Assembly (NCBI GenBank): GCA_945883285.1
Contig: CAMCXH010000014.1
Coordinates: 1-33,107, forward strand
DNA from: Bordetella parapertussis
GTDB taxonomy: Bacteria; Pseudomonadota; Gammaproteobacteria; Burkholderiales; Burkholderiaceae_E
Direction of reading: 5' to 3'
DNA length: 33,107 nt
The position numbers were made by a program, and so were the translations under genes. Position 1 is the first letter of the stretch. Every line of letters starts with the position of its first letter. Of this stretch, positions 7,848 through 26,447 are shown piece by piece. The notes below the pieces were generated by a model. The model did not search any database, had not been told where the DNA came from, and saw nothing but the letters and a program-made list of their open reading frames with translations.

Positions 7848-10196
7848 TCAGTCCGGCTCCCCACCCAACTTGCCGGAGATATCGCCCAGAACCAGATTCG
7901 CCGCGTGATACCCAGAACGCTGCAACCTCATGATCGAAGCCAGCGAAAAATCGTAGTCGCGCGAGGCCGGCTCACCATGCGCATCGCGGCGCACGATCCG
8001 CATGATCTTCTGGTCATGGTCTTCGCCCATAAGCTGAATGTAGCTCGGTCGCTGACGCAATTGCGAGGCGACCGTCGGGTCGACATGACTCAGTGATTCA
8101 TCGACCAGCTTGCGGTAGTCGCTCACCAGTTGGCGGTGATGTGAGTCTCGTCGGTAACGCTCGGCATAGACGATCTCATCGCGCCGCGCAATGACCTCAA
8201 GCAGGCTGGTGGGCAGGGGTTTGCGATGCGGAAACAGATCGACGATGTAGATCTGTTTGCCGTAAGCGCCGCACCGATCGATGACCTGATCCAACGGCGA
8301 ATTGCTCACGATGCCGCCGTCCCAATAGTGCCTGCCATCGATGGTGGTCCAGGGCAAGGCGAGCGGCAAGCTGCCGCTGGCAATGATGTGCTCGGGGGTC
8401 AGGTCATCAACATAGCTGTCAAACACACGCAGGGCCGCGGTTTCGACATCCACGGCACTGATGAGCAGACGCACAGGACTCGATTTCAGGACATCGAAAT
8501 CGACATACCTCTGAAGCAGCGACTTCATCGGTGCTGCATCGTAGAGGTAGGTCCATTCGCTCGGCAATTCATTGAGAACCGAACGAGCGTTGAGCCAACG
8601 CGGCCTGAAAAATCCTGGCACGCCCAGGGTGAAGATTTCCCAGGAGGTCATCAGTTGCTGGGCACGCTTGTCGGGCAGCTCGGTGGTCAGCACCGCCAGT
8701 TCCTTCCAGAACGCCTTCAGTACTTTGGCGGATTTCCCGGGATGGCTGGCAATGATCGCTCCATTGAACGCACCGATCGACACGCCAGCGACGATGTCGG
8801 GGCAGATTCGGTTTTCCTCGAGCGCACGAACAACACCCCACTCGAACGCACCGAGCGCACCGCCCCCCTGAAGAATCAGTACGGTCTGGGCAGGCACTGA
8901 ACTGAGCTTAAAGCCGGGGAAGTTCAGATGAGGCAACCACTTGCCGATATGCGTTCGAAAGCGTATCAACGCCTGGAGGGCATGCGTTTCCTGGGCAGGG
9001 CGGCCGGTCGTGAAGACCGCGCGAAGCACGCCCTGCCTCAGATAAAGCAGCGCACTCGAATGGGTCTTGAGCGATCCGATCTCGCTGGTCTCGTCGGTCT
9101 CGATCGGCAGACCGAAAAACTGATAACTCGCGTCGAAGAGCTCGCCAAAGAAGTAGGACACCTCGTCGTAGCGAAGCCTGTGACCGAGCATGTTCTTTGC
9201 CGCAATCCTCCCCTGTTTGGCCGCGTTATCCCAGTGCTCCATGCGGCGGCGAACATTGAAGACCACATCCCTGAAATTTGCGACGTCGCCTGCCGCATAG
9301 ACTTCGGCATGATTGCTGCACAGAAATTCATCGACGATCACGCCGTCATCGACCGCGATTCCACTGCCTCGCAAGAAGTCGATCTCGGGCGTAACGCCGA
9401 TGCCGACCGCCACGAAATCGCAAGACAACTTGAGCCCGCCGGCGGTGACCACCCCTGACACGCGAGGATGCATCGCTGATTCAGTCCGGACCCGGCGGCC
9501 TCGCTTTGCGAGCGGATCAGCGCCGCTCGATGCAAAGCTGACAGCCTCATCGAAATGAACCTTGACGCCACGTTTTTGATAGATATCGAAGAAATAGTCG
9601 CTGACTCGCGAGTCATGCAAAGTATCGAAAACTCGGCTCTCGCGAACCAGCAGCGTGACATCGACCCCCGCTTGCCGAAGGCTTGCGGCCAGTTCCATCC
9701 CGATAAAGCTCGCACCGATGACGACCGCACGCGATCCAGCGCGAATTTCCGCGCGCAGCGCCCGAGCATCTTCGACTGTACGAAGGTAATGAATGCCAGG
9801 CAGATCCGAGCCGGGCAGCTTCATGCGAATGACCTGCGTTCCAGTCGCAATCAGCATTCGGCCGTAGTGCCAGACAGCGCCTGTCTGCGTGGTCACGAGC
9901 TGACTGCGCGCATTGACGCGCACCACCCGCGTACCGAGTGCAATGTCAATGTGATGGCTGGGGTAGAAGTCAGCCGCCAGGACTGGCGCAGGGTCTCGGG
10001 CAGCGACCGTCTGACGCAAGATGTTTGCCAAGGCTGTGCGGTGGTAGGGCAGCGCGGGCTCGCCGCAGATCATCGTGATCGAGCCGCCCGCGCCTTCAAT
10101 ACGCAGGGTTTCAGCAGCACTGGCGCAGGCAACGCCGCCCCCCACGAGAAGGAAGTCGGCATGCTTTGGGTGGCTGGCTGGCTTGGCGATCGGCAC
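7848..10196 (-). CDS. Fusion protein: FAD/NAD-dependent oxidoreductase + patatin-like phospholipase
   Basis: A single 782-residue ORF with two enzymes. Residues 12-425 form a pyridine-nucleotide disulfide-oxidoreductase-type flavoprotein. It has an FAD-binding GGGVACASAA (19-28), PYHRTAL, an NAD-binding GASFIGME (161-168), VYAAGDVA (299-306) and an EHWDNAAKQGR segment like ferredoxin/rubredoxin reductases and AIFM3-type proteins, with a C-terminal reductase domain. Residues 438-782 form a patatin: oxyanion GGGALGAF (444-451), GVSIG with Ser473, and DGG with Asp626, followed by a long C-terminal extension as in patatins carrying DUF3734. All catalytic motifs look intact. The start is GTG at 10196, the first start after an in-frame TGA; the ribosome-binding site is poor. 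There is no signal peptide. It is divergent from the aldo/keto reductase gene. Known patatins hydrolyse acyl lipids; coupling to flavin redox is inferred. Confidence 0.9.
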   Translation of the reverse strand: MPIAKPASHPKHADFLLVGGGVACASAAETLRIEGAGGSITMICGEPALPYHRTALANILRQTVAARDPAPVLAADFYPSHHIDIALGTRVVRVNARSQLVTTQTGAVWHYGRMLIATGTQVIRMKLPGSDLPGIHYLRTVEDARALRAEIRAGSRAVVIGASFIGMELAASLRQAGVDVTLLVRESRVFDTLHDSRVSDYFFDIYQKRGVKVHFDEAVSFASSGADPLAKRGRRVRTESAMHPRVSGVVTAGGLKLSCDFVAVGIGVTPEIDFLRGSGIAVDDGVIVDEFLCSNHAEVYAAGDVANFRDVVFNVRRRMEHWDNAAKQGRIAAKNMLGHRLRYDEVSYFFGELFDASYQFFGLPIETDETSEIGSLKTHSSALLYLRQGVLRAVFTTGRPAQETHALQALIRFRTHIGKWLPHLNFPGFKLSSVPAQTVLILQGGGALGAFEWGVVRALEENRICPDIVAGVSIGAFNGAIIASHPGKSAKVLKAFWKELAVLTTELPDKRAQQLMTSWEIFTLGVPGFFRPRWLNARSVLNELPSEWTYLYDAAPMKSLLQRYVDFDVLKSSPVRLLISAVDVETAALRVFDSYVDDLTPEHIIASGSLPLALPWTTIDGRHYWDGGIVSNSPLDQVIDRCGAYGKQIYIVDLFPHRKPLPTSLLEVIARRDEIVYAERYRRDSHHRQLVSDYRKLVDESLSHVDPTVASQLRQRPSYIQLMGEDHDQKIMRIVRRDAHGEPASRDYDFSLASIMRLQRSGYHAANLVLGDISGKLGGEPD

Positions 10197-20910: not shown

Positions 20911-21180
20911 ATGCCCACCATGACCTTCAGCAGCGGTCGAATCAGAAAGGCCGACTACGACAGCGCCACGCGCCAACTCGAACTGCATTGGGACAACAAG
21001 TCCGTCACCGCCTACAAGAATGTGCCGGAAGAGGTCTATCGGCGACTATGCAGTTCACCCAATCCGGCAACTTACTGGGAGGACCGGATCGCGGATGAGT
21101 ACCCGAAGGGCACTCCGGTCACACCTTCGACCGATGCGCATGCCGCCAGGAAACTAAGTGACCTTTTTGGCGGCGACTGA
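20911..21180 (+). CDS. KTSC domain protein
   Basis: An 89-residue protein from the ATG at 20911; a GTG at 20887 and an ATG at 20920 are alternatives. The pattern SSGRIRKADYDSATRQLELH, then KNVPEEVYRRLCSSPNPATYWEDRIADEYP, resembles from memory the KTSC domain. That small domain of unknown function occurs alone or fused to other proteins in many bacteria. It is soluble, with no signal peptide. It lies 159 bases upstream of the caspase-like gene on the same strand; whether they are co-transcribed is unclear. Confidence 0.72.
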   Translation: MPTMTFSSGRIRKADYDSATRQLELHWDNKSVTAYKNVPEEVYRRLCSSPNPATYWEDRIADEYPKGTPVTPSTDAHAARKLSDLFGGD

Positions 21181-21339
21181 TGCAGCGATGGCGCTGGAGC
21201 GAGTCGCCAGAGGCAAAAGAGTAAAAAACGCGGCAACTATTCGATGACTGGCAGCCAGACACCGACGGACTGACTCGCGCCCGGGTCGCTTCCGGCGGTA
21301 TCGTCAGACGGATACGATGCCACGAGAGACGCTCAGTCG

Positions 21340-22833
21340 ATGAACAGGAAATTGATGCTGGTTTTGTACCTGGTGCTTTTCATTTGTTCATTGCCAGAAA
21401 TCGCATCGGCGCAGACCACACCGCCCGGTACAGGCACTGAAAATGAATGTGGCGTTTTTGAAGGCAACCTGACTTTCAAACTCGCAGATGGCAAGACCGG
21501 CTGCGTCAAGTCGCTGATGACCAAGCTGAATTATTCGGCTGACAACCGCGACCGAATTCTTCGTGCAGCCGACATGAACGGGGCACCGAGAACATTTGTC
21601 TGGCTCATCTCTGACGTCAAAGCCTGCCCGACCCTGACCTGGATCTCATCCCCGATGGATACCAGTCGAGAAGCCGCCGAACAGCGGATTTTTGCCGAAT
21701 GTCAGAAGGAACTTGATTCCAGGGTCGTCAAGCTTGGACGCACCCCCGGCCCGCAGTGCCAATGTGAGCTCGTCGTTCGGGATGGCGTGTCGCCGCTCAC
21801 CGGCATTGCCCTTCAAAAGCGAATCAACGACATCCTTGAAGCTCGCGCGAAACCTCAGCCACGCGCCGATCAGCTTGCCTCAAACCCTCGTGAGACAGCC
21901 ACCACCTCGGCCGGCAATGTACCCGCGATCAAGCCGCCGGCCACTGGCACACCGGGTACCCCATCACCATCTCTGGTGACCCAGGCGCCCGCGACCGCGC
22001 CGTCCGCTCAACCCGCCTACCAGAACGCCGTCGCGACCGCGTCACCTGCTGCCAATCAGACCACCAAGGCAACTGTGTCCGTGCCGCCCCCTGCCGGGCC
22101 ATCTGCCACAGCCGCACCGGCTCAGATTTTTGCCCATCGCAAGGCACTCGTGATCGGCAACGACAACTACACCTCAGTCTCGAAACTGCTCAACGCCCGA
22201 GCCGACGCCAATGCCCTGGGCAAAGTGCTCGTCGAGCTGGGCTACAAGGTCACGGTTCGCCAGGACCTGAATGAAAAAGAGATGAAGTCGGCATTGCGGC
22301 AATTTCGCAATGAAGTCGAAGGCGGTGATGAAGTGCTCTTTTTCTACGCTGGCCATGGTGTCCAGCTTGGATCGGCAAACTACCTGCTGCCAATCGACAT
22401 CAAGGGTGACAGCGAAGAACAGGTCAAAGACGAAGCCATCGAATTGCAGCGCATTCTCGACAGCTTCAATGAAAAGCGCGTCAAATTGGCTCTCGCTGTC
22501 ATCGATGCCTGCCGGGACAATCCGTTTCCCAAGAGCGGTCGCGCCATTGGTGGCCGAGGGCTCGCGCCGACAACCGCAGCCACCGGGCAGATGGTGGTCT
22601 TCTCGGCGGGATCAGGTCAGCAGGCACTGGATAAGCTCGGCCCTGGCGACAGAGATCCGAATGGCTTGTTCACACGCGTTTTTCTCAGCGAGATTCGGAC
22701 ACCCGGGGTCAGAGTCGACAACGTGATTCGCGAAGTCAGAAAGAAGGTTGTTGACGCAGCGAAGTCGGTCGGTCATGAGCAGGTCCCGGCCATCTACGAC
22801 CAGGTCGTCGGCGACTTTTACTTCAAGAGATAG
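21340..22833 (+). CDS. Secreted caspase-like (peptidase C14 family) protein with Cys-rich N-terminal domain
   Basis: A 497-residue exported protein, first gene of the envelope cluster. Signal peptide: residues 1-24, cleavage likely after ASA24. Residues 25-165 form an unrecognised domain with six Cys (37, 55, 96, 121, 140, 142), which suggests disulfides in the periplasm. Residues 170-262 are a Pro/Ala/Thr-rich linker. Residues 265-497 are a caspase-fold domain: RKALVIGNDNY opening, catalytic His339 in FFYAGHG, and catalytic Cys391 in VIDACRDNPF, so the dyad is complete. Bacterial members (orthocaspases and relatives) often cleave after Arg/Lys, but the specificity here is not readable. The ribosome-binding site is weak (GAGAGACG). 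The next gene begins 9 nt after the stop. Confidence 0.9.
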   Translation: MNRKLMLVLYLVLFICSLPEIASAQTTPPGTGTENECGVFEGNLTFKLADGKTGCVKSLMTKLNYSADNRDRILRAADMNGAPRTFVWLISDVKACPTLTWISSPMDTSREAAEQRIFAECQKELDSRVVKLGRTPGPQCQCELVVRDGVSPLTGIALQKRINDILEARAKPQPRADQLASNPRETATTSAGNVPAIKPPATGTPGTPSPSLVTQAPATAPSAQPAYQNAVATASPAANQTTKATVSVPPPAGPSATAAPAQIFAHRKALVIGNDNYTSVSKLLNARADANALGKVLVELGYKVTVRQDLNEKEMKSALRQFRNEVEGGDEVLFFYAGHGVQLGSANYLLPIDIKGDSEEQVKDEAIELQRILDSFNEKRVKLALAVIDACRDNPFPKSGRAIGGRGLAPTTAATGQMVVFSAGSGQQALDKLGPGDRDPNGLFTRVFLSEIRTPGVRVDNVIREVRKKVVDAAKSVGHEQVPAIYDQVVGDFYFKR

Positions 22834-22842
22834 GCGTTCACC

Positions 22843-23286
22843 ATGCGATCGTTCGTGCCTGTTTTTCTCGCTTTCGCGGGATACCTGTTTCATGCTGCAG
22901 GCGCCTTTGCGGCGCCGCTGATCATGACTGAAGAAGCGGCGCTTCCAGATGCCCACTCTGGCCCAGGCACCAGAGGTATCGGTCGAGGCCCGGGCATCAA
23001 AGTCACTTCTCCCGCCGACGGCGCTTCGCTGAAATCCCCCTTCGTTCTGAAGCTCGATTTCGAAACGCGTGGAGGCGTCCAAATCGACCCCGGTTCGGTC
23101 AGGGTGGCTTATCTCAAAGCGACACCGATCGATTTGACACCTCGTCTGAAAGGCGCGATTTCCGCAGCCGGGATCAATTTTGCGAACGCCGAAGCACCCG
23201 AAGGCAAGCATGTCCTGAAAGTGTCCGTGAAGGATATTGATGGGAGAGAAACGAATTCGGTTGTGACGCTTATCGTCGGCAAGTAG
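22843..23286 (+). CDS. Small exported protein of unknown function, possibly Ig-like
   Basis: A 147-residue protein with a signal peptide (MRSFVPVFLAF..., cleavage probably near AFAA at 22-24). The mature part has a Gly/Pro-rich start, then a segment from GIKVTSPADGASLKSPF to DGRETNSVVTLIVG that looks all-beta. The ITSPADGAxxxxPF opening and final strand resemble Ig-like/fibronectin-type modules that bind partners in the periplasm; this is a pattern impression, not a family match. Only 9 nt from the upstream caspase gene and 3 nt from the next gene, so it is surely in the same operon. No Cys in the mature chain. Confidence 0.75.
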   Translation: MRSFVPVFLAFAGYLFHAAGAFAAPLIMTEEAALPDAHSGPGTRGIGRGPGIKVTSPADGASLKSPFVLKLDFETRGGVQIDPGSVRVAYLKATPIDLTPRLKGAISAAGINFANAEAPEGKHVLKVSVKDIDGRETNSVVTLIVGK

Positions 23287-23289
23287 CCG

Positions 23290-24105
23290 ATGAAGTGTCC
23301 TTACTGCGTCTCCGAGCTTCCAGACGAAGCAGTCGTCTGCAGGGTGTGCAAGAGAGACCTGTATCTCTTCAAGCCGCTGCTCGGAAAGATCACAGAACTG
23401 GAGGCGCGTCTCAGCTCAGGGCCAGATGCGTCAGCCCTCGAAGCAAGGATCACCGAGCTCGAACTGACGCTGGCGAACCGATCACAGGCCACGTCACCAC
23501 AGACCATCGATGCCGGAAACGCTAGGGCGGTAAAGCGAACGTTCAGGGCCAGTGACATTCTTTTCTTTCTGATCGCGCCACTTGCAGTGCTGCTGATCGC
23601 TCACGCGCTGATCACGATCGTCTATGACGCACCGCTGATTTACCTGCGAATCGTTTCGATCATTCTGCCGCTTCCTTTCGGGTTTTTTCTTTTTCGTCGC
23701 GGCGCCGGAAATTTCGCCCTGTGGTTTGCAGCGGCCCTGTTGCTTGCTGTCGCCTCGGTCGTTGGCATGAGCGCATCCACCAGCGCGGTCGACCACACCC
23801 CGATCTGGCCCCAGTCGGCGATCGAATGGCGCGAGGTTCTGGAGTACTCGGCAAGTATTGCCTTCAGCTTTCTCGCAGGGATGGTACTGGGCGGAATTCG
23901 CTCGGGTCGGCAGACACAGTCTGGCGAAATCGATCCGACAGGATGGTCATATCGCATCGCCAGCCTTGGTCGCAGCGGCCAACTTTCGCTTGAGTCCTTT
24001 CATGAGCGAGTAAAAGCCCTGTCTGAGTTCGGCGCCACGACCGCAGCCCTGGGTGCCACGGCAGCGTCGATCTATACCGGGCTCAAGGGCGTTTTGGGCG
24101 CATAG
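23290..24105 (+). CDS. Zinc-ribbon polytopic membrane protein of unknown function
   Basis: A 271-residue protein. It opens with a zinc ribbon (Cys3, Cys6, Cys17, Cys20 in MKCPYC and CRVC). A short coiled-coil-like stretch rich in Glu and Leu follows (about 30-63). Four hydrophobic segments come next (about 90-111, 117-135, 143-163, 186-204), then a cytoplasmic-looking tail with helical GATTAALGATAAS. The ribbon and tail should face the cytoplasm. It is not a family I recognise. It starts 3 nt after the preceding stop, so it is translationally linked with the exported protein. In this cluster it may connect the cytoplasm to the exported caspase-like proteins. Confidence 0.8.
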   Translation: MKCPYCVSELPDEAVVCRVCKRDLYLFKPLLGKITELEARLSSGPDASALEARITELELTLANRSQATSPQTIDAGNARAVKRTFRASDILFFLIAPLAVLLIAHALITIVYDAPLIYLRIVSIILPLPFGFFLFRRGAGNFALWFAAALLLAVASVVGMSASTSAVDHTPIWPQSAIEWREVLEYSASIAFSFLAGMVLGGIRSGRQTQSGEIDPTGWSYRIASLGRSGQLSLESFHERVKALSEFGATTAALGATAASIYTGLKGVLGA

Positions 24106-24176
24106 GGTGCTCCTGACTTCAAATATTGCGCACCAAGGCGCCACGCAATCTGATCTTCGGATATAAGCTCACAACG

Positions 24177-25799
24177 ATGAAGCGACCTCTTGCTCTTGGC
24201 GGTTTGATCCTTGGACTTCTTCTGGGTACGACGGGCATCAGTGCCCATGCGGTCGAGGGCCGATACGCACTCATCGTCGGGATTGGCAACTACTCCGAAG
24301 CGTCCAATACACCGCCATTGAAAGGCGCTCCGCGCGATGTCGACAACGCGCGAAAGATGGCGCTCGCCATCGGCGTGGACCCTGCTTCGATCACAGAGTT
24401 GCGTGACAGCGCCGCAACAAAGCCTCGAATTCTTCGGGAGTTGGCCAAGCTTCAAGACACCGTCAAACCTGGCGATCGAGTCTTTATTTACTGGACGGGC
24501 CATGGATCACGATACGCGGGGCCAAACGGCTGCGTCGAAGGCTTGCAAACCTATACAGACGGCGTGTTCACGCAAGCGGATGTGATGAGCGAGGCGGAGT
24601 TGGCGGTCCATCTTCAGCCGATCAGCAAGGTGGCCGACAAAGTGCTGACGGTGATGGACGCCTGTTTCTCAGGCGGTGTCATCAAGGGCAGTACACGAGG
24701 CCTCCTGGAATCGAGCCGGCCGCAGGCCAAGTTCAATGATCAGTCGGGTGGCCAGTGCGATGTCGGGATCAATCAGCCTCGCACCCGAGGTCTTCTGAGC
24801 GAAATCTCCAGACTTGGCGTCAGGCAGGAAAACTTTGTGCAGATCGCTGCCGCCGCAGATAACGAAGTCAGCTGGGACAGCGAGGTTTACGGCGGGATCG
24901 CCACCAACGCCCTGGCCCAGTGCCTGCTTGGCGAGGCACGGGATCTCAACAGCAGCGGCGCGGTATCACTTGAGGAGGTGCGGATCTGCGCGCAGGTCCG
25001 CATGAACAGCCTCATGGAACCCTACCGGCAACTGGGCATGGCGCCCTCGACGCTGCAGATCAAAGGCAACCGCAACCTGGTGATTGCGCCTGCAACGCCC
25101 GCTCAGGCGCTTGCCTCTCGGCCGCCGGTCGATTCTCCGCCGCCCGCACCGTTGCCACCGACCACAACCGTGGCGGTGCCACCCAGACAGCCGATCCGCA
25201 CGTCCGATCTGCCGGGGTCAGTCGCTACGCCGCCCCAAGGGGCTGGGGTGATTCAATCCCAACCGGTGATCACTTCGATTCAAGAGCCGTTACCGCCCTC
25301 GCCGATTGGTTCGCGCGGAACGCTTGAAGACATTTTCAATCAACGCGACCCGCGCATCCAGATCGATGTGTCGGCACCGAAGCAACTCACGATCGGTCGT
25401 GACCGCTTTGCATTCTCGGTAAAGCCTTCAAACGACGGCTACCTTTATGCGGTACTGCTGGGTAGCGATGAGAAAAGTTTCTATCTCCTCTTTCCAAACA
25501 AACTCGATGCAGATAACCGAGTCAAGGCCAACCAGACGTATTCAATGCCGCGCGCGGGTTGGCAGGTTGGCGCAGCCGGGCCTGAAGGCACCGACCGGAT
25601 TCTCTTTGTGCTCAGTCAATCGCCGCGCGATCCGAAGATCTTTGCGAGCGATGACAGCAGCGCGGGCGGTCCTTTCTCATATTCGGTCGCTGATTTCGGC
25701 TCAAGACAGCGGCTGCTTGATTTTTTTCTGGGCAAGGGTGTCAAGGGCCGTAACGCTGCAATGGGTGCAGCAATGATCGAGGTCGAGGAAGTACGATGA
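24177..25799 (+). CDS. Secreted caspase-like protein with DUF4384-like C-terminal domain
   Basis: A 540-residue exported protein. The ATG at 24177 is chosen over a TTG at 24126 because it opens directly with a signal peptide (MKRPLALGGLILGLLLGTTG, cleavage near AHA25). The caspase-fold domain spans about 28-305: RYALIVGIGNY, His109 in WTGHG, Cys163 in VMDACFSGG, dyad complete. A loop at 256-267 (DLNSSGAVSLEE) fits the EF-hand Ca pattern. A Pro-rich linker (about 305-385) leads to a domain at about 395-490 resembling DUF4384 (FAFSVKPSNDGYLYAVLLGS...SFYLLFPN). The stop overlaps the OmpA-family start by 4 nt. It is distinct from the upstream caspase-like protein, so not a recent tandem copy. Confidence 0.9.
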   Translation: MKRPLALGGLILGLLLGTTGISAHAVEGRYALIVGIGNYSEASNTPPLKGAPRDVDNARKMALAIGVDPASITELRDSAATKPRILRELAKLQDTVKPGDRVFIYWTGHGSRYAGPNGCVEGLQTYTDGVFTQADVMSEAELAVHLQPISKVADKVLTVMDACFSGGVIKGSTRGLLESSRPQAKFNDQSGGQCDVGINQPRTRGLLSEISRLGVRQENFVQIAAAADNEVSWDSEVYGGIATNALAQCLLGEARDLNSSGAVSLEEVRICAQVRMNSLMEPYRQLGMAPSTLQIKGNRNLVIAPATPAQALASRPPVDSPPPAPLPPTTTVAVPPRQPIRTSDLPGSVATPPQGAGVIQSQPVITSIQEPLPPSPIGSRGTLEDIFNQRDPRIQIDVSAPKQLTIGRDRFAFSVKPSNDGYLYAVLLGSDEKSFYLLFPNKLDADNRVKANQTYSMPRAGWQVGAAGPEGTDRILFVLSQSPRDPKIFASDDSSAGGPFSYSVADFGSRQRLLDFFLGKGVKGRNAAMGAAMIEVEEVR

Positions 25800-26311
25800 A
25801 ATCTCTGATGGCATTGATTCTGCTTCTTGTTACACCGCTGCTCGCAGCAGCCCAGGTTTCGCAGGGGGTCAAGGCGCCCGTCGCCAACGCATCAGTCGAC
25901 GAACTGGTCGATGCACTGAAGCCGCAGGTCGTCACCCGAGGCCTCGGCAGAAACCTCACCGTGGAGCCCTCGAAGATCGACCTGAGCGTGAACTTCGAGT
26001 TCAACTCGGCCACCCTGCGCCCCGAGAGCATTCCCTTGCTGGAGCGATTGGCCGCTGCGATGAAAACCGACCAGCTGGCGCAGTCAGGGTTTCAGGTCGA
26101 GGGGCATACCGATGCAACCGGCAGCATGCCGTACAACGACGCACTGTCGGTTCGACGAGCACAGACGGTCGTTGAATTCCTGATCCGAAACAAGATCGAT
26201 CAGTCGCGGCTGCAATCGATCGGCAAGGGCTCGAGCGAACTGCTTGTGCCCGACGATCCAGCGGCTGCAGCAAACCGGCGGGTCAGAATCTCGTCGGTCG
26301 AAATGCGGTAA
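25796..26311 (+). CDS. OmpA-family peptidoglycan-binding protein
   Basis: A 171-residue exported protein. Signal peptide: MKSLMALILLLVTPLLAAAQ, cleavage near residue 19. An OmpA C-terminal domain follows (about 64-170): INFEFNSATLRPES-like strand (LSVNFEFNSATL), VEGHTDATGSMPYNDALSVRRA with the conserved Asp106 and Arg residues that bind diaminopimelate, and a final NRRVRI. No lipobox and no beta-barrel, so it is probably a soluble periplasmic protein held on peptidoglycan. The ATG overlaps the stop of the caspase-DUF4384 gene (ATGA), so the two are coupled and probably made in fixed ratio. It ends the cluster. Confidence 0.92.
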   Translation: MKSLMALILLLVTPLLAAAQVSQGVKAPVANASVDELVDALKPQVVTRGLGRNLTVEPSKIDLSVNFEFNSATLRPESIPLLERLAAAMKTDQLAQSGFQVEGHTDATGSMPYNDALSVRRAQTVVEFLIRNKIDQSRLQSIGKGSSELLVPDDPAAAANRRVRISSVEMR

Positions 26312-26447
26312 GGCTGTCAACCGCTGCGCGCCGACCGCGCCCGTCTGCCTGGTCCGCAGGCTTGCCTGTCTCGACGGCGAGCCCACGACGCACCGGCTTC
26401 GCGGCTATCATGACCGTAGCCCCACCGACACTTACCCTCAGGTCACC

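Follow-up and report, generated by a model that had tools for sequence, protein, structure and literature searches.

A five-gene block in Bordetella parapertussis with two exported-looking caspase-like proteins and a recurrent pair of partner genes

We analysed a cluster of five open reading frames (ORFs) on the plus strand of contig CAMCXH010000014.1 of Bordetella parapertussis (assembly GCA_945883285.1). The window, meaning the whole stretch of 33,107 nucleotides that was analysed, is the entire contig, and the genome is in 249 contigs of 3.5 Mb altogether. The genes encode, in order, a caspase-like protein of peptidase family C14 (Casp1), a small immunoglobulin (Ig)-like protein (Small), a zinc-ribbon membrane protein with predicted transmembrane (TM) helices (ZnTM), a second caspase-like protein carrying a DUF4384 domain (CaspDUF4384) and an OmpA-domain protein (Table 1). 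The genes are spaced by 9, 3 and 71 nt and the last pair overlaps by 4 nt. The ORFs, the spacing and the domains, by coordinates and Pfam, thus agree with the original prediction, which was made from the DNA letters. The same can be said of its claim that four of the five proteins have signal peptides, as the N-termini of genes 1, 2, 4 and 5 look exported by eye and that of gene 3 (ZnTM) does not. A scan for promoters and terminators gave nothing above shuffled sequences.

Table 1. Positions of the genes, motifs and accessory block within the window
Feature	Position	Strand	Basis or remark
Casp1, C14 caspase, exported-looking	21340..22833	+	Pfam; N-terminus by eye
Small, Ig-like, exported-looking, 147 aa	22843..23286	+	AlphaFold2 model; no Pfam/NCBIfam family
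Two-arginine motif T43-R44-G45-I46-G47-R48 of Small (codons)	22969..22986	+	Conservation, model
ZnTM, zinc ribbon and four predicted TM helices	23290..24105	+	Alignment, model
CaspDUF4384, exported-looking, C14 then DUF4384	24177..25799	+	Pfam
OmpA-domain protein, exported-looking	25796..26311	+	Pfam; 4-nt overlap with the CaspDUF4384 gene
T47-R48-G49-L50-G51-R52 in the linker before the OmpA domain (codons)	25934..25951	+	Resembles the Small motif
Block missing from same-genus genome G005	21173..26398		Comparison of flanks

Both caspase-like proteins match Pfam Peptidase C14 (PF00656; curated cut-off 21.4 bits), Casp1 with 113.3 bits (E 1.9e-32) and CaspDUF4384 with 56.8 bits (E 3.4e-15), and they are the sole C14 matches in the genome. 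Casp1 has its C14 domain at the C-terminus behind about 240 residues of other and low-complexity sequence. In CaspDUF4384 the C14 domain is N-terminal and is followed by a Pro-rich linker and the C-terminal DUF4384 (PF14326; E 9.8e-16, 58.1 bits against a cut-off of 27). The catalytic His/Cys dyad was said to be kept in both proteins, and we find it as H339 (22354-22356) and C391 (22510-22512) in Casp1, where D389 precedes the Cys, and as H109 (24501-24503) and C163 (24663-24665) in CaspDUF4384; both read GHG and DAC at these sites. A text pattern for GHG and D-x-C matched 20 of 21 C14 proteins; the exception, a distant relative in G629, is not among the proteins of the 21 ZnTM loci described below, and DAC stands in every C14 protein of those loci. 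We take the acidic residue of the DAC position, in the S1 pocket, to go with cleavage after Arg or Lys. Orthocaspases cleave after positively charged residues, according to the accessible text of one source (PMC6426788). Going by the DAC active site, the sequences suggest that the C14 type is Arg-specific.

The two middle proteins belong to no family that we could name. For the window ZnTM, Pfam gave zinc ribbons among the sub-threshold matches and nothing above cut-off, and NCBIfam gave no match at all. When 16 ZnTM rows were compared with NCBIfam, the best E was 0.0093 and no model was matched by more than one row; a Variovorax relative passes the generic Zn_ribbon_3 only. All 16 aligned rows share the cysteines C3, C6, C17 and C20, and also H105, D113, D168 and P174. 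The structural model has the ribbon, two helices, four TM helices and a moderately hydrophobic C-terminal helix. Mean positive charges are 0.8 in the loop 164-180 and 4.7 after TM4, and from this distribution both ends of ZnTM are predicted to be cytoplasmic and the conserved loop at about 164-180 to be periplasmic. In three genomes of one genus (L110, L111, L112) a 65-aa ORF between Small and ZnTM resembles the ZnTM N-terminus, as a free-standing second zinc ribbon.

Small has no Pfam match at E 1, and 17 Small rows gave no convincing NCBIfam match (best E 0.012). An AlphaFold2 model from the 17-row alignment has a mean predicted local distance difference test score (pLDDT) of 80.5, with an Ig-like domain from about residue 51 and a conserved N-terminal segment at 21-40 (LITxEEAxLP) modelled at about 80. 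Residues 43-45 fall below 50, and block 41-50 averages 60. The two-arginine motif of Table 1 lies in this stretch. Its general form is a pair of arginines that lie a few positions apart and flank G/A/S and I/L/V (TRGITRGP is an example). Each of the 24 Small copies of this type has it between the signal peptide and the Ig domain, and 23 of them come from ZnTM-bearing genomes. The three copies of a second type, Small-B (G276, G028 and G629), are without it; G276 holds both types. The structural matches listed for Small were general Ig-like folds only (best Foldseek E 1.5e-3, best Z 8.1). Beyond a region encoding tetratricopeptide repeats (TPRs) and CHAT, G363 and G180 (L039, L098) have a second Small gene that keeps the motif and does not adjoin ZnTM; a single protease may thus serve both Small proteins there.

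Within the genus the block behaves as a unit, present or absent as a whole. In G005, of the same genus, both flanks match the window at 90-93% identity and the five genes are missing: the counterparts of window positions 21172 and 26399 lie only about 60 bases apart, and a KTSC-domain gene directly neighbours a CoA-transferase-like gene. In G001 the site between those two flanking genes is occupied by a 602-aa gene, antiporter-like by eye. ZnTM was detected in two of 12 same-genus genomes, the window's own counted. The nearest relative, G002, has genes 1-4 in window order at 82-93% identity, and of gene 5 only the start is kept, as it ends after 43 codons. The ratio of nonsynonymous to synonymous substitution rates (dN/dS) against G002 is 0.22, 0.09, 0.19 and 0.10 for genes 1-4 (for gene 4 over 513 codons), which shows purifying selection on the products, Small being the most constrained of them. 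The GC content of the block is 57-59% against 61-65% across 5 kb on each side; this says little, because equally low values (58-60%) also occur at 7-10 kb of the window. The edge stretches have no common direct or inverted word of at least 10 bases. The five genes form one unit that is present or missing together, and the proposal of a single module stands, also with regard to related genomes, where the content and much of the order are conserved.

A ZnTM search across 399 genomes of the order gave matches in 17, 12 of them strong (E <1e-50). Weak matches (E 1e-3 to 1e-7, over a short part of the profile) were excluded before counting; these were G070, G104, G111, G197 and G249 in the order search, six of seven matches in the class sample and three of eight in the phylum sample. 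On inspection the matches of G070, G197 and G111 look like other proteins, although a CHAT gene is found some 2 kb away from one of the three (L094). The 21 ZnTM loci that remain are the 12 strong order matches, G002, those of Sheuella, Uliginosibacterium and Paucibacter, four from the phylum sample of 185 genomes (outside the window's class by kinship label) and one plasmid. The latter is CP063167 of Variovorax paradoxus VAI-C, with CHAT (INQ48_34565), Small (34560) and ZnTM (34555). The class sample of 248 genomes held no strong ZnTM match besides the window's, and in 274 genomes of the class one Small-B was found beyond the window's Small.

Small adjoins ZnTM in all 21 loci, and in all of them a clan-CD gene lies beside the pair, C14 in 10 and CHAT in 11. 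CHAT and C14 both belong to peptidase clan CD. The peptidase domain is on the same contig in 19 of the 21, usually next to the pair and never more than 2.9 kb from ZnTM (the maximum, in Uliginosibacterium); in G340 and G180 the clan-CD gene is cut by the contig end beside the pair and the matching remainder starts another contig. As for base rates, 117 of 399 genomes have C14 (223 matches) and 46 of 160 have CHAT (67 matches). With about one C14 or CHAT gene per genome, the chance of finding one within 3 kb is therefore about 0.2% per locus. Seven CHAT proteins of ZnTM loci score 156.7-205.8 bits against the CHAT cut-off of 24 (PF12770), TPRs were found in five of these seven in the Pfam scan, and a text pattern located the catalytic His and Cys in 12 of 12 CHAT proteins.

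Small and ZnTM are hence a reusable pair that is found with either branch of the caspase clan, and the caspase focus of the original prediction is too narrow. A module specific to caspases does not agree with the 11 loci where the pair adjoins CHAT and not C14. Free occurrence of the middle genes without caspases had been named as evidence against the idea; taken by the letter these loci are such cases, and the replacement comes from the same clan. Loss of gene order in all related genomes had been named as well, and there the idea survives.

Two further families of the order also have the set. Five genomes of genus g27 (G059, G106, G224, G283, G340) have the arrangement Small-ZnTM-Casp1-CaspDUF4384-OmpA, split in G340 over two contigs within Casp1. 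G276, from a third family, has Small-ZnTM-CaspDUF4384-OmpA in window order, with a divergent Casp1 and with Small-B following OmpA. G028, of the window's own family, carries CaspDUF4384-OmpA-Small-B-Casp1 on a contig that starts within the first gene, and no ZnTM was found in it. Two side observations belong here. Directly after Casp1 of G276 (L040 12811-14718) there is a histidine kinase with a 7TMR-DISMED2 sensor domain, a possible regulator. In G629 (L041 5914-12038) a distant cluster combines a caspase-DUF4384 protein, a subtilase (S8), a protein resembling Small-B and a caspase fused with PEGA and FGE-sulfatase domains, which brings another protease family into the theme.

Gene 5 has a clear Pfam OmpA match (PF00691; E 6.1e-20, 71.8 bits against a cut-off of 27.2). 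Against the NCBIfam equivalog models of named OmpA lipoproteins (YiaD, Pal, YfiB and others) it stayed below the cut-offs, YiaD scoring best with 81.2 against 175 bits among the best 25 of 40 models, and the PADLOC match to ZorB models is via the OmpA-like part. From its domain the product is probably a peptidoglycan anchor. The OmpA gene was seen beside the pair only in the double-caspase type; OmpA is outside the module core, and G002 keeps only the start of the gene.

It seems possible to combine these observations, and the reading we tentatively prefer, one that we hold a little short of probable, is an accessory module of the envelope: a clan-CD protease specific for Arg would act together with Small, probably by cutting at the motif, and ZnTM would relay the state inward. 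Once activated by some signal the protease would act in the periplasm and would cut Small in the two-arginine loop between the N-terminal segment and the Ig domain. The changed Small may then interact differently with the conserved loop of ZnTM in the periplasm, and the cytoplasmic zinc ribbon of ZnTM would pass the state inward. Proteolysis and a relay through the zinc-ribbon protein, both part of the original prediction, are plausible. The OmpA protein may hold the double-caspase version to the wall, and a role in sensing or docking is probable for the DUF4384 tail and for the N-terminal region of Casp1. Further, we speculate that Small and ZnTM could be a general adaptor for exported caspase-clan proteases, where interchangeable caspases or CHAT proteins cut the two-arginine site outside the cytoplasm and ZnTM reads the cut inside. 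This wider form we consider unlikely; if true, it would be a bacterial protease cascade across the membrane, a kind not described in the literature searched.

Several points weigh against the periplasmic cutting and relay. The signal peptides were assessed by eye on the N-termini, and the text pattern for the motif was broadened to cover the variants seen. In shuffles of the window proteins the motif is marginal (Small 0.054, CaspDUF4384 0.034, OmpA 0.11), and it does not occur in Casp1 or ZnTM; TRGL/TRSL-like stretches follow the catalytic Cys in caspase-DUF4384 proteins. The ZnTM model has a modest predicted template modelling score (pTM 0.51), and Foldseek gave no structural match for ZnTM. 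The 21 loci come from at most 13 genera and are therefore not all independent. Plasmid pS11L-1 of B. japonicum has CHAT and a motif-bearing Small with no annotated ZnTM alongside, the single such case. In the 21-row ZnTM tree four C14/CHAT label changes are needed, of which well-supported branches force one, and the window ZnTM groups with CHAT-linked ZnTMs at 94/95. A single clade for the double-caspase loci gave a p-value of 0.088 in the approximately unbiased test (p-AU), not significant, and exchange of the protease type is therefore suggested and not proven.

The motif-like stretch of the OmpA linker belongs to the same account. In a control with plasmid relatives of the OmpA protein the motif was present in seven of seven whose stretch, as read, includes an annotated caspase or CHAT gene, and also in seven of 10 whose stretch does not, or six of 10 if TR[GS][LI] is required (one-sided Fisher 0.18 for the pattern as run, 0.09 for the strict one). 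It should be noted that this control used 17 of 19 fetched regions (L128 was left out and L132 is without annotation), with flanks of 4, 5 or 9 kb and incomplete plasmid gene tables. As the motif occurs without annotated caspases, likeness across proteins is no proof of a shared cut, and we rejected the OmpA motif as proof of a common caspase site, since it is a subfamily trait present also without annotated caspase or CHAT neighbours. Three Rhodobacterales plasmids (L115, L124, L133) carry a caspase, an M15 peptidase, OmpA with a TRGL linker, a Ser/Thr kinase and PP2C beside type VI secretion genes (tagF, tssM), and Ruegeria L130 has the identical OmpA-kinase-PP2C-tagF set with no annotated caspase in the stretch. 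What looks like a different envelope cluster was seen at L084 11282-14660 and L085 7648-10713, namely a region matching DUF4384 close to an OmpA gene, together with small proteins that look exported and have stretches of the NxNAxA type.

The motif of Small could also be a docking site, and this leads to the main rival, on the unlikely side in our judgement, where Small is a regulator (inhibitor, chaperone or adaptor) and not a substrate, the motif docks ZnTM or the protease, and ZnTM recruits the protease to the inner membrane. That the motif mostly accompanies ZnTM (23 of 24 copies being from genomes that have it), is missing from the three Small-B copies and sits in the gene most constrained against G002 would fit such a role. 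On the other hand, the motif is also found in Small copies that do not adjoin ZnTM (the second copies of G180 and G363, and B. japonicum), its first arginine lies in a low-confidence stretch, as a cut site would, and both Small types occur in G276.

A role in self-killing or defence, with the clan-CD protease freeing a membrane-active ZnTM fragment or damaging the envelope so that the cell dies, would suit the patchy presence of a discrete accessory block (two of 12 same-genus genomes) and the moderately hydrophobic C-terminal helix of ZnTM. Caspase-like peptidases are effectors or constant parts of predicted conflict systems, including EACC1 plus caspase, a two-gene system associated with the membrane, in the accessible text of that study (PMC7159879). 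Against this the proteins look exported, and no defence genes were noticed in the neighbourhoods read. The PADLOC scan, which covered the five window proteins, gave for the two caspases the generic caspase model PDLC02987 (47.7 and 64.2 bits), and the model for EACC1-associated caspases (NF047832) is far below its cut-off of 140, with 57.1 and 30 bits. We regard this explanation as quite improbable.

More doubtful still is the maturation of a surface structure, as with gingipain and the Mfa/Fim proteins of Porphyromonas, where the N-terminal segment would be removed so that the Ig-like protein assembles. An Arg-specific protease, a beta-sandwich partner and a loop arginine that follows a packed N-terminal segment would all be in accordance with it, as far as the source is accessible (PMC4789730). 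No pilin (Mfa/Fim type V) is among the structural matches listed for Small, an observation that says little either way; a tip or anchor set is lacking, and ZnTM has no counterpart there. Neighbourhood by chance with unrelated functions, to which the 71-nt gap and the lack of promoter or terminator signals above shuffles might point, is refuted for Small, ZnTM and the clan-CD gene by the 21 of 21 loci and the unit-wise presence and absence, and is next to negligible.

Apart from the cluster, the window holds at 7848-10196 on the minus strand an unusual 782-aa ORF, by eye a FAD/NAD-linked reductase fused to a patatin-like phospholipase.

The literature searched, with most subscription papers outside it, held nothing on the five-gene set, on Small or ZnTM or on the alternation of C14 and CHAT, in agreement with the suggestion that this is a candidate for an undescribed system. 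The conserved, exported-looking set brings two undescribed partner families found with either of two clan branches, and Small with its one short motif is a testable substrate candidate. Named carriers of the pair are Variovorax paradoxus VAI-C, with an annotated CHAT gene, and Paucibacter oligotrophus CHU3.

Parts of the set resemble what has been described. Like prokaryotic metacaspases and orthocaspases, the caspases have a C14 domain with the His/Cys dyad, and some members surveyed in 2012 have an N-terminal helix, possibly a signal peptide (PMC3501461). OmpA occurred there in 14 of 217 metacaspase operons, so the linkage of caspase and OmpA is already known. More than one metacaspase was found in 20 operons, in the accessible text only in Alphaproteobacteria, Bacteroidetes, Cyanobacteria and Deltaproteobacteria, Betaproteobacteria not included (PMC3501461). 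That text mentions neither a Small or ZnTM partner nor an exchange of C14 for CHAT, in which it differs from the present set. The pairing of a membrane protein with a caspase is likewise already known, as the predicted EACC1 system (System 4, PMC7159879), where a small membrane protein, a proposed sensor, lies beside a caspase-superfamily protein and a near-membrane function is proposed. As far as that source is accessible, EACC1 is a single-TM domain, whereas ZnTM combines a zinc ribbon with four predicted TM helices, and the EACC1 system is without an Ig-like exported partner (PMC7159879). The CHAT partners are like the TPR-CHAT proteases (Craspase) in combining TPRs with CHAT in the five of seven mentioned above and in having the catalytic His and Cys. 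Unlike Craspase, as it appears in the accessible text, they look exported, and no Cas7-11-like neighbour was noticed.

The nearest working analogy is gingipain, a peptidase of family C25, with its Mfa substrate. According to the accessible text of the source, gingipain cleaves the Mfa subunit after Arg53, and the part in front of this site is an N-terminal extension packed as a strand (PMC4789730). If the cutting of Small that we prefer holds, an Arg-specific protease would likewise cut behind the N-terminal segment of a beta-sandwich partner. The subunits of the gingipain system, as it is described there, are lipoprotein and fimbrial, it has no membrane zinc-ribbon partner, and the peptidase family differs. 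We do not claim membership in the gingipain/Mfa-Fim systems, because the gene set differs and the structural matches listed do not settle the question. Most discussion of caspase relatives in bacteria concerns cytoplasmic effectors of death or defence, and the present set could show a role of caspase-clan proteases outside the cytoplasm.

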